64,000 nt of DNA from Caldicellulosiruptor danielii (GTDB lineage Bacteria; Bacillota; Thermoanaerobacteria; Caldicellulosiruptorales; Caldicellulosiruptoraceae): assembly GCF_034343125.1 (NCBI RefSeq), contig NZ_CP139957.1, positions 2,350,001 through 2,414,000 of the forward strand, written 5' to 3'. Shown here in pieces: positions 18,184 to 55,091 of this stretch (position 1 is its first letter; each line of letters opens with the position of its first letter). Under the pieces are notes generated by a model. That model ran no database searches. It worked only from the letters and a program-made list of their open reading frames with translations, and was not told where the DNA came from. A program made the position numbers and the translations under genes.

Positions 18184-18211
18184 AAAAATCATAATAAAAA
18201 ATTAAAATCAA

Positions 18212-18346
18212 AAAAGCTGAATTCCTGTGGCAAAAATCCACAGGATAGGGGGGACCCAAACATTTTGGGGTGAATCAAGGCATCTTGCCTTGTAGGGCAA
18301 AGATTCCCTTTCTGCCCGAACCCGTCAGCTAACCCCCGAAGCTTTG
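18212..18346 (+). ncRNA. Cyclic di-AMP riboswitch (ydaO-yuaA type)
   Basis: Conserved ydaO aptamer elements occur in order: GCTGAA, GGGGGACCCA...TGGGGTGAATC, GTAGGGC, GCCCGAACCCGTCAGCTAAC, and the 3' half of P1. P1 pairs AAAGCT (18213-18218) with AGCTTT (18340-18345). The element resembles the B. subtilis ydaO leader closely. No terminator lies between it and the gene. Instead the ribosome binding site starts exactly where P1 ends, and TCCCTTTC inside the aptamer (18305-18312) is perfectly complementary to GAAAGGGA of the ribosome site (18346-18353), suggesting translational control. Confidence 0.93.
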
Positions 18347-18364
18347 AAAGGGAGGTTTGTTTTT

Positions 18365-19723
18365 ATGAATGTCAAATTTAATCCAAAGACTCATATTCTT
18401 GAGATTGAGTATCAGTTCAGAGATGTTGAAGAGCCAAATCTTTTCAGGAACATCTATCCTTACAATGAAGTGCCAAGGCTTGTTTTCAACCACAGGATTG
18501 TTCCCATGAACGTGCCTGAACGTCTTTACATCACAGACACAACCTTCAGAGACGGTCAGCAATCACGCTCGCCTTACACTGTTGATCAAATCTGTAGAAT
18601 TTATGACTACTTGCATGAGCTTGACAACGGAAGTGGTGTTATTCTTCACACAGAGTTTTTTGTGTACTCAAAACAGGACAAAGAGGCAGTTTTAAAGTGT
18701 TTGGAAAAAGGTTATGACTTTCCAAAGGTGACCGCTTGGATTCGCGCAAAAAAAGAGGATTTTGAGATTGTAAAGAGCCTTGGTATCAAGGAAACAGGAA
18801 TACTTGTTTCATGCTCGGACTACCACATTTTTAAGAAGCTCAAGATGACACGAAGCCAGGCAATGAAACAGTACTTAGAGATTGTGTCATCAGCACTTGA
18901 GGCAGGAATTATACCACGCTGCCACTTTGAAGACATCACAAGAGCCGACTTTTACGGATTTGTTCTGCCATTTATAAATGAGCTTATGAAGCTCTCGAAA
19001 GAGGCAAAAATGCCTGTTAAAATCAGAGCATGTGACACACTTGGTCTTGGCTCACCCATACCTGGTGTTGCTCTGCCAAGAAGCGTGCCTCAAATAATCT
19101 ATGGGATTGTGAACTATGGAGAGGTGCCATCTGAGTGGCTTGAGTGGCATGGTCATAACGACTTTTACAAGGCTGTTATAAACTCTACAATGGCATGGCT
19201 TTATGGTGCCTCAATGGTAAACACATCTCTTTTGGGAATAGGTGAGCGAACTGGCAATACTCCTTTAGAAGCAATGGTGATGGAATATATTCAGATAAGA
19301 GGGTCGGCAGATGGTATGAATGTTGCTGTGATATCTGAGATTGCCGAATATTTCAAAAAAGAAATAGGCTATGAAATTCCGCCAATGACGCCTTTTGTCG
19401 GTGAGAATTTTAACGCAACACGGGCTGGAATTCATGCAGATGGGCTTATGAAGGATGAGGAAATCTACAATATATTTGATACAGGTAAAATTTTGGGAAG
19501 ACCACCAAAGGTTATTATAGATGCATATTCAGGCATCGCAGGAATTGTAATCTGGATAAACAGGTATTTTAAAGACAGCGGCATTGACATTCAGGTTGAC
19601 AAAAAAGACCCAAGGGTTCAGAAGGTCAAAGAGTGGGTAGATAGTCAATATGAAAATGGGAGAAATACATCAATAAGTGATGAAGAGTTAAAAGAGGTTG
19701 TAAGTAGAATATTTGGATTGTAA
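18365..19723 (+). CDS. HMGL-family acyltransferase: Re-citrate/homocitrate synthase-like
   Basis: A 452-residue member of the isopropylmalate/homocitrate/Re-citrate synthase family, which condenses acetyl-CoA with a 2-oxo acid. The TIM-barrel motifs are DTTFRDGQQSRSP near residue 57, CHFEDITRADFYGF, the metal-binding HGHNDF, and GIGERTGNTPLE. The C-terminal regulatory LeuA domain is absent, and the approximately 55-residue N-terminal extension resembles clostridial proteins that include Re-citrate synthase; that specific activity is inference. The ATG at 18365 follows AAAGGGAGG. The gene is directly under a c-di-AMP riboswitch and has its own promoter. Alternatives: homocitrate or isopropylmalate synthase. 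Confidence 0.75.
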   Translation: MNVKFNPKTHILEIEYQFRDVEEPNLFRNIYPYNEVPRLVFNHRIVPMNVPERLYITDTTFRDGQQSRSPYTVDQICRIYDYLHELDNGSGVILHTEFFVYSKQDKEAVLKCLEKGYDFPKVTAWIRAKKEDFEIVKSLGIKETGILVSCSDYHIFKKLKMTRSQAMKQYLEIVSSALEAGIIPRCHFEDITRADFYGFVLPFINELMKLSKEAKMPVKIRACDTLGLGSPIPGVALPRSVPQIIYGIVNYGEVPSEWLEWHGHNDFYKAVINSTMAWLYGASMVNTSLLGIGERTGNTPLEAMVMEYIQIRGSADGMNVAVISEIAEYFKKEIGYEIPPMTPFVGENFNATRAGIHADGLMKDEEIYNIFDTGKILGRPPKVIIDAYSGIAGIVIWINRYFKDSGIDIQVDKKDPRVQKVKEWVDSQYENGRNTSISDEELKEVVSRIFGL

Positions 19724-49716: not shown

Positions 49717-49905
49717 TTATCTTGTTAAATCGAGAATAATTTGGGAGATTTCGTTTTTTAATTTTGTAATTTTCTCCAATACTTTTTGATTGGATTGCAT
49801 CTTCTTTTCCAACTCACTTTTGCTTTTATTAAAATCTTCTTTTGAATTTCTCAAAAGCTCGGTTATAATGCCACAAACCTGTGATATTTTCTCCTCCATA
49901 TCCAT
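49717..49905 (-). pseudogene. C-terminal fragment of a dynamin-like GTPase
   Basis: 62 residues forming one amphipathic coiled coil (EEKISQVCGIITELLRNSKE, KSELEKKMQSNQKVLEKITK, LKNEISQIILDL), with the heptad pattern found at the C-terminus of bacterial dynamin-like GTPases. It starts right at the end of the IS200/IS605 element, while the GTPase N-terminus lies on the other side (51785-52117) in the same orientation. I read the two as remnants of one gene whose middle part, some hundreds of residues, is gone. Alternative: an independent small coiled-coil protein. Confidence 0.55.
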
Positions 49906-50067
49906 CTTGAAAGCGTGAAGTTACCCACGACTAAATCGCAGGCTTCCTGCTTCATCGACCAGGCTTGCTACGGAAAGTTGGAAAATTCCCAACCCCCAGT
50001 AGTAGAGGTCCAATCTCCACAGGCATCGCCATTACTGGCTCGGAGCCCACCACCCCTACTTTGTAAT

Positions 50068-51234
50068 CTATACACTTATAGTTATGCCTAACCGTGATAA
50101 CCCTTCTTTTAGTAGGTTTTTTGCTGCGTTCTCTTCTCTGTCGTGTACCATCCCACAAACCGGACATTGCCATACCCTTATTTTCAGGTCTTTCACCTGC
50201 TCATTCCTGTACCCACAATTGCTACAAATCTGCGATGATGGGAAGTTCGATGGCACTCTCATAAATGTCCTGCCATACCACTCCGATTTGTACTCAAGCA
50301 TCTCTACAAACTTTGACCATGATACATCCAATATGCTTTTTGCAAAATTGTGATTTCTTACAAGGTTCTTTGTCTTCAGGTCTTCACAGATTATCACTTG
50401 GTTTTCGTGAACAATCTGTGAAGATAACTTGTGCAGATAATCCAACCTAATATTTGCTACCTTTTCATAAAGTTTTGCAAGTTTTAATCTTGTCTTCTCA
50501 AAGTTCCTACTGCCTACCTTCTTCCTTGAAAGTTCTCTTTGAAGTTTCTTTATTCTTTTCTCGTACTTTGACAGTATCTTAGGATTTTCTATATGTCTAC
50601 CATTGCTGTCTACCACAAACTCTTTAACCCCAAGGTCAAAAGCAATAGCAAAATTTGCAGGTGTTTTTGGCATATTAGGATTATCAACCACATCCTGCTC
50701 TACTGCTATTGACACATAAAAATAGCCATTTGGAAGCAGTTTTACTGTTGCTGTTTTGATTTTACCCTCAAAAATTCTGTGAATTCTTGCTTTTACCCAG
50801 CCAAGTTTGGGAAGTTTTATCCTTCCCCAGCAACGTTTCTTCTTAGGGTCTGTTGCCAGCTCACCAAAATCTATTTCTATGTTACCGTTTGTGAAATTTG
50901 TTGTGTATGAAAAATAGTTGCTTTTCTTTCTCTTAAACTTTGGGTATTTTGCCTGCTTGTTAAAAAATTTCTCAAATGCCTCTACAAGTCTTTTGATTTG
51001 GTTCTCAAGCGCAAACTTGTCTACTTCTTTCAACCATGGATACTCTTTTTTGAGATGTTTTTGCAAGTGCCTTATCCACTCATAAGTATTCGGTGATACC
51101 TTCTGAGTTTTATAAATTTCGTTCTGACGTGCTAAAAAATAATTCCATACAAATCTGACACAACCAAAAGTCTTCTTTAACTTCCTCTCTTGCTCTTTTG
51201 TAGGGTATATCCTATATCTGTATGTGACTATCAT
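50068..51234 (-). CDS. tnpB: IS605-type TnpB (RNA-guided nuclease family)
   Basis: A 388-residue TnpB with the N-terminal HTH (YRIYPTKEQERKLKKTFGCV, RFVWNYFL), RuvC motif I Asp in AFDLGVKEF, motif II Glu in QVIICEDLKTKNLV, a zinc ribbon (CSNCG...CPVCG) and motif III Asp in HDREENAAKNLL. All catalytic residues are present. TnpB nucleases cut at transposon-donor sites guided by an RNA from the element right end, aiding element retention. GTG/ATG overlap with tnpA; start ATG 51234. Confidence 0.93.
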   Translation of the reverse strand: MIVTYRYRIYPTKEQERKLKKTFGCVRFVWNYFLARQNEIYKTQKVSPNTYEWIRHLQKHLKKEYPWLKEVDKFALENQIKRLVEAFEKFFNKQAKYPKFKRKKSNYFSYTTNFTNGNIEIDFGELATDPKKKRCWGRIKLPKLGWVKARIHRIFEGKIKTATVKLLPNGYFYVSIAVEQDVVDNPNMPKTPANFAIAFDLGVKEFVVDSNGRHIENPKILSKYEKRIKKLQRELSRKKVGSRNFEKTRLKLAKLYEKVANIRLDYLHKLSSQIVHENQVIICEDLKTKNLVRNHNFAKSILDVSWSKFVEMLEYKSEWYGRTFMRVPSNFPSSQICSNCGYRNEQVKDLKIRVWQCPVCGMVHDREENAAKNLLKEGLSRLGITISV

Positions 51235-51641
51235 ATACCTTGCTTCTCCTTCTGAGAATTGATATACTCTCTTATTTGTTCTTCAGTATTTTCACTCACC
51301 GTTGCAACAAAGTATGAAGGATTCCATAAATGTCCGCCCCAGAGTTTTGATTTGAGCTCTGGAAAGAACTGAAACAACCTTCTTGCGCTAACTCCTTTCA
51401 GAGCTTTTATTAAATCAGGTATATAATGCTGAGGTGAACAATCTATTAAAAGGTGAACATGGTCTTGATTTGTTTCCATTGCTATTATTTCAAAACCCTG
51501 TTCTTTTGCTATTTCCAGAAGTATTTCTTTCAATTTTGTTTCTATTTCACCGTGCAATATTTTATGCCTGTACTTTACGCACCAAACTATATGGTACTGA
51601 AGTGAATATACGTATCCTCTCCCGTGATGAACTGTTGCCAT
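51231..51641 (-). CDS. tnpA: IS200-type Y1 (HUH) transposase
   Basis: 136 residues: YHIVWCVKYRHKIL at the start, the metal-binding HUH motif in DHVHLLIDCSPQ, LWGGHLWNPSYFV and the catalytic Tyr in EEQIREYINSQ. This is the complete single-strand-DNA transposase of the IS200/IS605 family. It overlaps tnpB by 4 bases. Confidence 0.95.
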   Translation of the reverse strand: MATVHHGRGYVYSLQYHIVWCVKYRHKILHGEIETKLKEILLEIAKEQGFEIIAMETNQDHVHLLIDCSPQHYIPDLIKALKGVSARRLFQFFPELKSKLWGGHLWNPSYFVATVSENTEEQIREYINSQKEKQGI

Positions 51642-51784: not shown

Positions 51785-52117
51785 TCAATCAACTGGAATT
51801 TCTTTTTTTACACCACTTTCAAAAATTACATCTACTTTAACCTCAGGACTGTAATAAATCTTTGTTATTACTGAGGTCAAAGGAAGAACTCCGGTTGGTA
51901 GTAAATTTGCACCAAGCATGTAATTTACAAGCGTCGATTTTCCCCTTTTAAACTGACCCAATACAACCAGATAAAATGCATTCTTTTCAATCTTTTCCTT
52001 AATACTCCCTGCTAACTTTTTAATAGATTCTGAATTAATTTCATTTGAAATCTCTTGGACTTGCTCAGTAAAGTTTCTAATCATATCTTGCACAACATCA
52101 TATTCTATAGTCCTCAT
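51785..52117 (-). pseudogene. N-terminal fragment of a dynamin-like GTPase cut by the IS element
   Basis: 110 residues: a helical start (MIRNFTEQVQEISNEINSES), then the P-loop GQFKRGKSTLVNYMLG, the switch region LLPTGVLPLTSVIT and the beta-hairpin KVDVIFESGVKKEIPVD, ending at TGA 51785 next to the IS left end. This is exactly the first part of the dynamin_N domain; the remaining G motifs and stalk are missing. It lies 55 bases after the DUF6062 gene and so in the fluoride-switch transcript. A matching C-terminal coiled coil lies beyond the IS. Confidence 0.8.
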
Positions 52118-52172: not shown

Positions 52173-52805
52173 CTACTGCGTACCTGCCACAAACTCAACA
52201 GCCATGTGCCATGCTCTGACCTCATCAGCTGTGTAGTTGATGTGAATGTTTCGATAGTCATTTTTTTCTTTTATTCTCTCAAGATGATTCAAGATTTTGT
52301 CTATCTTAGACCCTAAAATTGACAAAAGCTCCTTTTGAACAGATACAGAAGTTGTCTTCTCCAAAACTTGATTTAAGTGCTTTTGACATATAAAACCTCT
52401 TTCAGTAAATGCAGATTTAAATTGAGACTGGGTAGCAAAAAAGTAGGAAAACGCTCTTGTGTAGGTGTCTTCAAAGCCTTGTTCTTTTTCACAAAAGACG
52501 CAAATATTTTGTCCTTGAGTTTTCTTTTTACGAGGCAATATCTCAATATGGTGGTTGTTTTTAAAACTTCTAAGCAAATCCGAATATATAATGGCATGGG
52601 CAAGCACATCTCCAAACGACTCTAATTTTCTTGCATGTCTTGGACAGATTCCACCCTTTCTTATTTTGTCACGTAAGCTGTAGTCGTTTACTGATTCATA
52701 CAGAAAATCATCAAAAAACTTATCCATTGCCTTGTTTTTAAGATGACATATAATGCACTTATCTTCTTTGAAGTTTTCTATCATCTCAAAATACACTATG
52801 TCCAA
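52173..52805 (-). CDS. DUF6062 family protein under fluoride riboswitch control
   Basis: 210 residues from TTG 52805, with GGGGGG upstream. Cysteine pairs appear in EDKCIICHLK and NICVFCEKEQG, with CxxH-type motifs GGICPRHARKL and GFICQKHLNQVL, all suggesting a metal site in a helical protein. The start EMIENFKEDKCIICHLKNKA fits DUF6062. The frame extends to 53018, but that part is the riboswitch and its terminator, so it is not translated. Upstream are a promoter, fluoride aptamer and terminator; downstream is the broken dynamin-like gene. Function unknown; a fluoride-stress role is inferred only from the switch. Confidence 0.85.
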   Translation of the reverse strand: MDIVYFEMIENFKEDKCIICHLKNKAMDKFFDDFLYESVNDYSLRDKIRKGGICPRHARKLESFGDVLAHAIIYSDLLRSFKNNHHIEILPRKKKTQGQNICVFCEKEQGFEDTYTRAFSYFFATQSQFKSAFTERGFICQKHLNQVLEKTTSVSVQKELLSILGSKIDKILNHLERIKEKNDYRNIHINYTADEVRAWHMAVEFVAGTQ

Positions 52806-52848
52806 GGTCAATCCCCCCAAAGTACTCAAAAATAAGAGCCTATAAAAG

Positions 52849-52886
52849 CAAAAAACTCCTGCCCGCATCTTATACGGACAGGAGTT
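52849..52886 (-). terminator. Expression-platform terminator of the fluoride riboswitch
   Basis: AACTCCTG (52886-52879) pairs with CAGGAGTT (52861-52854), extended by a weak inner stem, followed by TTTTTT on the minus strand. The ACTCC strand is also the 3' strand of the aptamer pseudoknot, so ligand binding and termination are mutually exclusive: an ON switch. Confidence 0.9.
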
Positions 52887-52945
52887 ATCAGCCACAAGGT
52901 ATTTTTTATTCTTGTGGCATTTTAAGGCGAACTCCATCGCCCTGG
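52876..52945 (-). ncRNA. Fluoride riboswitch (crcB motif)
   Basis: Read on the minus strand the conserved order is GGGCGATG-GAGTT-CGCC, then AAAATGCC, a P3 stem (CCACAAG/CTTGTGG), and GGCTGATA-ACTCC. The GAGT/ACTC pseudoknot is intact. It aligns part by part with the Thermotoga petrophila fluoride aptamer. The start is about 17-25 bases after a consensus promoter. Confidence 0.95.
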
Positions 52946-52968
52946 TATTTACTTTTTCCTTTATATTA

Positions 52969-52997
52969 ATTATATGAGGTTTTGAAAGATAAATCAA
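52969..52997 (-). promoter_or_regulatory. Promoter of the fluoride riboswitch transcript
   Basis: On the minus strand TTGATT (52997-52992), a 17-base spacer and TATAAT (52974-52969). The predicted start near 52962 lies just before the aptamer. Confidence 0.85.
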
Positions 52998-53249: not shown

Positions 53250-53789
53250 CTACACCATTATAAACTCTTGTTGCTTTAAAAATGCAATTGCTTCACTTAT
53301 TTGTTGCTCAGAATACTTATTGCCTTTTAATCTAATAACCTTTTCTATAACTACTTTTTGATTCTCCTCATCAATTTTGTTAATCCTCATTTGATTAATA
53401 ATATAGTCTACAGTCGCAATAAGTTCTAAGTCTTTAGCACTAAAGCTACATAATTTTTTTATTAGATCTTTATTTTTATCTTCCAGTACCTCAGCTAATT
53501 TTAAATTATCTACTATATTCTGGGCAGGAGTTATCTTATGAGTATACCCATCATTTTCGACATTTATCAAACCCTGTATCTCTAATCTGTAAACATCATA
53601 TTCCAACTGACTACTGTATGGTCCGTAATAATGAATGGAAAAATTGTACCCCAAATTTAAGCCCTTCCTCTGGACCAAATATATAATCTTTTGAAGCAGT
53701 TTTTTCCCAACTTTATTCCCTGTCTGTGTGCAATACTTTGAAATTTCACTTATTAATCCCAAAAGTCTTTCTATACGAACATCTGTCAT
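53250..53789 (-). CDS. YwgA-family protein
   Basis: 179 residues. KKLLQKIIYLVQRKGLNLGY and FSIHYYGPYSSQLEYDVYRL are the YwgA signature, a helical fold related to SocA-type regulators. The next gene upstream is an HD hydrolase, the same pairing as ywgA-ywfO in Bacillus. Unknown function; perhaps an accessory of the HD enzyme. Start ATG 53789, 18 bases after the HD gene stop. Confidence 0.75.
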   Translation of the reverse strand: MTDVRIERLLGLISEISKYCTQTGNKVGKKLLQKIIYLVQRKGLNLGYNFSIHYYGPYSSQLEYDVYRLEIQGLINVENDGYTHKITPAQNIVDNLKLAEVLEDKNKDLIKKLCSFSAKDLELIATVDYIINQMRINKIDEENQKVVIEKVIRLKGNKYSEQQISEAIAFLKQQEFIMV

Positions 53790-53807: not shown

Positions 53808-55091
53808 TTATTTACTCATTTTTTCCATCATCTCACTCACAATTTTTATTGCTTCTTCTTTCTTATCTTCATAAACGTATATTCTTTTTATGTTTATAGG
53901 CTCTGTCATTTTTCTTATAACTTCAGAGGCAACACTAACTGGTATCACTTTTTTGTCATTTTCAGTAATCACAGGAATTGCTTTCTCGCTATCAAGCTCA
54001 TACCTCACTGGCATTTGATGTACAAGTTTATCGGCTGAATCTAAAATAAAATATTCTTCGCCAATCCTTTCCACTAAGTTGTTTTTAATTAAGTTGAAAA
54101 TTTGTCGATCTTTTTCAGAAGTATGAACAGGAGTTTCATAGACTTTGCTTAGTATCTTTCTTTTTAAAATTCGTTCTGCCCATTCATTTTGTTTTATATT
54201 TTGTTTCATAAGTTCTAACACATAAATATCATCATACTTCAAAAATTCTTGAATATCTTCTGGATACTTTCCATTTGGAAGCACTCCTTTTAAAAAATAC
54301 AAAAGAGCATTATCTAAAAACCCTCTTGTTTTATGAAAATAAACTTGGGTAAACATAAAATATCTTGCAAGAACAAACTCTTCGAAAGCATGCATTCCAC
54401 CTTTTTCAATAGCAAGGTAAAGCACTCCTTCTTCATTTTCCCAAACAGTGAAAGTATTAATAAGCCTTTCTAAATCAAATTTTCCATAACTAACTCCACA
54501 ATATAATGAGTCTCGTAATAAATAATCCATTTTATCACAATCGAGTTCGCTATCCATAAACTTCTTCAGAAATATAAAATCAGGATTTTCTATGTTTTCT
54601 CCTTTATATATGGAAGATATCAATTCTGGTGTAATATCATACTCCTCACCATATTGCTTTTTAAACCATTCCCCAATCTCACTAATACAATCAGCAACTT
54701 CTGTTTGTGTTACTATCATATGGGTATAGTCTTCATGTGAAAAACCATCCGGCAAAAGCTCTTCTGAAGCATGAGAAAATGGTGCATGTCCCAAATCATG
54801 AACTAATGCTATAATTCTCAATATTTGAGTATACCACTCTTTCGTAGCAATATCAAAGATTTATGTTTTTTCAGTTACTGTATTAAAAGCTCTTGTAACA
54901 AGATGCATAACTCCTAATGAATGTCCAAACCTCGAATGTTCAGCACCATGGTAGATATAATGTGAAAAGGCTAACTGTTTTATGTTTCGCAATCTTTGAA
55001 ATGGAAAAGAATCAATGAGCTTAAGTTCTAAAGGTCGAACATAAATGAATCCGTGAACTGGGTCACGAAACTTATATAATTTTTCACTCAT
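53808..55091 (-). pseudogene. HD-superfamily phosphohydrolase (YwfO-like) with an in-frame stop
   Basis: The frame from ATG 55091 gives KFRDPVHGFIYVRPLELKLI, RLRNIKQLAFSHYIYHGAEH, SRFGHSLGVMHLV, then TAA at 54861-54863. Without any frameshift it continues IFDIATKEWYTQILRIIALV, HDLGHAPFSHASEE and the rest to 53808. The metal-binding H...HD set is thus complete but split between two frames-in-register. The whole is about 427 codons, normal for YwfO-type dNTPase-like HD proteins. Either a nonsense mutation (CAA/GAA/AAA to TAA) or a miscall. TTG 54821 might restart a shorter, probably inactive product. Confidence 0.85.

Follow-up and report, generated by a model that had tools for sequence, protein, structure and literature searches.

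The window, by which we mean the whole stretch of 64,000 nucleotides of Caldicellulosiruptor danielii that was analysed, contains on its minus strand an apparent fluoride riboswitch followed by a gene of the protein family DUF6062. This arrangement raises the question of whether a family known only by its DUF number belongs to the cellular response to fluoride. The gene families under fluoride switches have told what fluoride does in cells, revealing export, pH, glycolysis, phosphate and DNA repair as its concerns. In published accounts (PMC11139923, PMC2864571), the regulon reported so far comprises FluC/CrcB, CLC-F, Na+/H+ antiporters, enolase and pyrophosphatase, together with formate hydrogen lyase, chorismate mutase, HAD and MutS kinds. 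A literature search, limited to the accessible parts of its sources, returned no paper naming DUF6062, which may still stand as an unnamed 'hypothetical' entry in Baker et al. 2012 or in supplementary tables. The same search returned no paper coupling fluoride riboswitches to dynamin.

The leader and the gene that follows it

A preliminary description of this locus had read a complete chain on the minus strand, consisting of a consensus promoter, a crcB-motif aptamer with intact pseudoknot, a terminator sharing the ACTCC strand, a G6 ribosome site and a Cys-rich DUF6062 gene. All of these elements were recovered (Table 1). The aptamer matches RF01734 with 48.0 bits (E=3e-10, gathering cut-off 34 bits), and P1, P3 and the long-range pseudoknot are intact. 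In a comparison of 25 aptamers 98.7% of cells were paired. Every cell pairs in the pseudoknot, and three of its five pairs change on both sides, out of six aptamer pairs at which such changes were seen. The score of the promoter alone is not above chance (3 found vs 2.4 expected in a consensus scan). However, an alignment of leaders revealed that its -10 element is conserved in nearly all members of the genus, an exception to promoter conservation being G002, where the upstream DNA has diverged. Aptamer, terminator, ribosome-binding site and TTG start are conserved alongside the promoter, and the G6 site lies 7 nt before the start codon.

Table 1. Features of the fluoride-switch locus, with positions given in the window.
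Feature	Position	Strand	Basis
Promoter, TTGATT-17-nt spacer-TATAAT	52969..52997	(-)	consensus scan; -10 kept in nearly all genus leaders
Fluoride riboswitch aptamer (crcB motif, RF01734), extended P3, GGAGT/ACTCC pseudoknot	52872..52950	(-)	Rfam, covariation, leader alignment
Expression platform: intrinsic terminator (15 pairs) and T-rich tail	52846..52886	(-)	fold, terminator scan, leader alignment
Terminator stem	52854..52886	(-)	fold, terminator scan
Ribosome-binding site GGGGGG	52813..52818	(-)	sequence; kept in genus
DUF6062 gene, TTG start (52805), 210 aa, two CxxC...CxxH repeats	52173..52805	(-)	Pfam, dN/dS, AlphaFold, internal duplication
Dynamin-like GTPase, N-terminal fragment, disrupted; later gene of ancestral operon	51785..52117	(-)	Pfam PF00350; intact orthologues
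IS200/IS605-type insertion inside dynamin gene	50068..51641	(-)	ORFs, position between dynamin remnants
tnpA-like	51231..51641	(-)	within IS200/IS605-type insertion
tnpB-like	50068..51234	(-)	within IS200/IS605-type insertion
Dynamin C-terminal remnant (FKMDMEEKISQVCGIITELL...ILDLTR*)	49717..49911	(-)	translation matches C-terminus of intact G002 orthologue

The terminator is followed by a T-run, and is kept both across the genus and in G012, from a second genus of the family, with changed stem bases. Its 5' strand starts with the ACTCC of the pseudoknot, such that an RF01734 expression platform is coupled to the aptamer through a common strand. This overlap implies an ON switch in which fluoride binding should block termination. 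Judged by its sequence, the leader is a genuine fluoride riboswitch and an ordinary member of its class. Fluoride binding and induction would be expected from this established riboswitch family and, with both the known class and the shared strand behind it, a fluoride-controlled switching step is highly probable.

The 210-aa product matches PF19538 (DUF6062) with 62.5 bits (E=5e-17, gathering cut-off 27 bits) over residues 8-187, which correspond to positions 10-218 of the 243 in the profile and hence most of it. An ORF of 281 aa was rejected as the gene, being a mechanical longest frame that runs back through the aptamer. The Cys motifs of the preliminary description are real, with eight invariant residues (C17, C20, C54, H57, C102, C105, C140 and H143) making up two CxxC and two CxxH pairs. 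Profile comparison with hhalign indicates that the two halves of the protein are homologous (probability 96.6, E 5e-10), and a C-terminal DYR motif is shared with the Pfam family. The dN/dS against relatives is 0.06-0.12, and the gene is under strong purifying selection in the present genome. The invariant pairs suggest that the protein binds metal, two Cys3His zinc sites being the natural and most likely reading of the motifs.

The structure predicted by AlphaFold is all-helical (mean pLDDT 92.2, pTM 0.85). A Foldseek search of the PDB with this model gave no match at E under 1, and the best VIA-align score against the PDB (Z 5.3 over 87 residues) falls in the noise range of helical proteins. 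The absence of a match to the predicted model does not prove that the fold is new. Profile searches of PDB sequences returned weak matches only, the best being ribosomal protein S18 (E=0.02, to the second CxxC/CxxH half), which was treated as chance. No NCBIfam model was found for the protein.

An operon decayed around DUF6062

The genome (G000, 2.82 Mb) contains two fluoride switches in total, the other of which (G000:C1:621445-621508 (+), locus L033) precedes two tandem crcB (FluC) genes. In three relatives (G001, G002 and G009) genes for DUF6062, an antiporter, a universal stress protein (USP) and a dynamin-like GTPase come in turn after the switch, although the USP position of G009 is without an intact ORF in our map. 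The full order in G001 is switch, DUF6062, exchanger, USP, dynamin, c10 and zinc-ribbon/HEAT gene. In the present genome the exchanger and USP genes are missing and the dynamin gene, whose intact orthologues in the equivalent operon of these relatives encode 589-592 aa, has been destroyed. An insertion, assigned by eye to the IS200/IS605 family from its protein sequences, separates the two dynamin remnants, and comparison with the intact G002 orthologue revealed that the middle of the gene is deleted. DUF6062 alone is intact among the genes of the ancestral operon.

Similar fluoride islands, with DUF6062 at their head, were found elsewhere. Neighbours of DUF6062 within them include the Na+/H+ exchanger (PF00999), the universal stress protein (PF00582), MutS domain V (PF00488) and an MFS transporter (PF07690). 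The exchanger and MutS kinds are themselves established fluoride-switch genes (PMC11139923, PMC2864571). The dynamin-like GTPase (PF00350) is present in 16 loci, e.g. L052:3843-5615 (+), and adjoins DUF6062 in several families. A small zinc-ribbon/HEAT protein (PF13646), for which NCBIfam holds no model, is present in 14 loci, e.g. L161:6770-7195 (-). Between DUF6062/dynamin and the zinc-ribbon/HEAT gene lies a 112-aa family with neither a Pfam nor an NCBIfam match, found in eight islands (e.g. L156:8198-8536 (+), L034, L036). Frame-broken traces of this family seem to lie at 49690-49650 of the window.

Two further observations concern the surroundings. Upstream of the fluoride switch, the product of a gene at 53250-53789 (-) aligns with the C-terminal portion of the DarG antitoxin model (50 bits vs a cut-off of 250), and is possibly a stand-alone domain adjoining an HD-domain gene (53808-54821). 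Elsewhere in the window a strong c-di-AMP (ydaO) riboswitch (18205-18359 (+), 91.5 bits in Rfam) stands directly before a gene at 18344-19723 (+), whose 459-aa product resembles by eye the citrate/homocitrate/isopropylmalate synthase family, an unusual ydaO target.

Recurrence of the pairing

Recurrence in related genomes had been set beforehand as a test of the proposal that DUF6062 should be added to the fluoride regulon. Each of the 12 genomes in the genus has such a long-P3 switch, and in 11 of them it is followed by DUF6062 at a distance of about 60-150 nt. The gene is broken in G006. G003 has lost it, the pseudoknot there reads GAAAT vs ACTCC and the promoter, including the -10, has decayed; where the gene is lost, the switch decays. 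In G007 the entire leader occurs a second time before gltX in a partly decayed form (L046:10881-10959 (-), pseudoknot GGAAT), and the start region of DUF6062 is still recognisable there. Outside the genus, the unit is present in G012, where the protein is 60% identical. Within genus g5, from another family of the class, about ten genomes have DUF6062 after a switch; most possess an intact gene, G030 and G033 a broken one, and in G028 it lies 700 nt from the switch. In G021 DUF6062 follows a switch twice.

The search was extended to a phylum sample of 398 genomes, where the neighbourhoods of 47 DUF6062 genes from outside the class were inspected. Eleven of these genes, spread over nine genomes and eight family codes, lie directly under a same-strand switch, where about 0.002 would be expected, and a switch stands within 6 kb of 22 (about 0.14 expected), both expectations being rough estimates from switch density. 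Switches in this sample were located with an aptamer model made for this analysis, and most are independently backed by Rfam, several above the cut-off. The aptamers of L114, L117, L119, L120, L125 and L141 score 20-30.5 bits, below the Rfam cut-off, so that their genomic position carries part of the argument. An apparent DUF6062 match inside a 1219-aa frame (L171) was excluded as doubtful.

Beyond the phylum, evidence comes from 36 loci. Among named genomes, DUF6062 has a switch directly before it in Omnitrophota (L178, 55.7 bits), UBP3 (L173, 46.4 bits) and Armatimonadota (L201, 41.9 bits; L202, 32.8 bits and just below the cut-off). A Thermotogota contig has a same-strand switch 4 kb upstream (28.5 bits), and switches near DUF6062 were also found in Chloroflexota. 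Placement of DUF6062 immediately below a fluoride switch thus recurs across unrelated lineages, comprising a second genus, another family of the class, eight more families from the phylum sample and three or more further phyla, and this recurrence supports the membership that had been proposed. On the DUF6062 tree the switch label is scattered, and the starred (well-supported) branches force at least 5-6 changes, indicating that the pairing arose or was lost repeatedly. Twenty-five of the 47 genes have no switch within 6 kb and the present genome encodes a second DUF6062 copy without a switch, showing that the family is not exclusively fluoride-regulated.

A probable place for DUF6062 in the fluoride response

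Taken together, these data make a fluoride-activated transcription unit, with DUF6062 as its conserved target, the very likely explanation of the locus as a whole. At low fluoride the nascent leader would fold the terminator and transcription would stop. Mg-bound fluoride would stabilise the aptamer, the pseudoknot would hold ACTCC and leave the terminator incomplete, and DUF6062 would be transcribed, ancestrally together with the antiporter, USP, dynamin-like, small and zinc-ribbon/HEAT genes. The product would be a soluble all-helical protein with two CxxC...CxxH units and most likely two Zn sites, acting in the intracellular fluoride response beside the FluC exporter and not replacing it. 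Given the leader and its recurrence, fluoride regulation of DUF6062 is very likely, and the same recurrence argues that the protein very probably helps in fluoride stress.

Whether such help would be specific to fluoride is less clear-cut. DUF6062 might instead be a general stress or pH protein with several inducers, fluoride among them, responding for example to the acid stress of HF entry. The genes beside it in the islands serve general pH and stress functions, a link between fluoride and acid stress is described in PMC11139923, and many DUF6062 genes lack a switch. With roughly half of the family outside the class lacking a nearby switch, this reading is a serious rival, with an appreciable but minority chance of being correct. 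It sits less easily with the finding of the gene, again and again, under fluoride switches across unrelated families and phyla, at times as the sole gene.

A different reading of the operon in G001, G002 and G009 is that the switch serves the antiporter and USP genes, DUF6062 being merely first in line. However, no gene other than DUF6062 stands under the switch in G012, G148 (contig 15) and G122, the antiporter has its own switch in several genomes (L114, L121, L156, L161, L163), and DUF6062 has been kept at low dN/dS in the present genome whilst other operon genes were lost. As the one intact gene here and the sole switched gene in those three genomes, it is unlikely to be a mere passenger, and the alternative is quite improbable. 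Least probable of all, and very unlikely, is that the unit is a relic on its way to loss like the adjoining dynamin gene, broken here by insertion and deletion, and like DUF6062 itself in G006 and G003, since no part of the unit (aptamer, terminator, promoter, ribosome-binding site or gene) is damaged here, every part is conserved, and the dN/dS of the gene is low.

If DUF6062 is indeed a conserved target of fluoride activation, its biochemical part can be sketched in outline. It may have a protective or adaptor role. It could, tentatively, be a Zn-dependent adaptor or chaperone working with the islands' membrane and stress proteins. A broader and equally speculative proposal is that DUF6062 is an unrecognised, widespread non-transport fluoride-tolerance protein, with a fold unseen in solved structures and two metal sites, which joins the dynamin-like GTPase and the zinc-ribbon/HEAT partner in a fluoride-induced module of membrane or metal protection. 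The company of the dynamin-like GTPase points to membranes. Four phyla or more have this uncharacterised family under fluoride switches, in some cases as the sole target, and it hereby gains its first functional handle. Caldicellulosiruptor and Thermoanaerobacterium include species with genetic tools, and the role of DUF6062 is therefore directly testable.

Set against the reported fluoride regulon, DUF6062 likewise lies directly under switches or in islands with them, and co-occurs with the antiporter and MutS kinds. Together with the dynamin-like GTPase and the zinc-ribbon/HEAT protein, it is unnamed in the regulon gene lists contained in the accessible portions of PMC11139923 and PMC2864571. 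The protein resembles Pfam DUF6062 in matching the family over most of its length and in the invariant CxxC/CxxH pairs; however, it falls within a divergent branch scoring 57-62 bits, against 232 bits for the paralogue that this genome encodes without a switch. The closest counterpart of the leader is the terminator-type fluoride riboswitch of Bacillus cereus crcB. Whilst the present genus differs in its long P3 and in the control of DUF6062 and no exporter, the two are alike in aptamer consensus, in the pseudoknot, in the overlap of a pseudoknot strand by the terminator and in ON logic.
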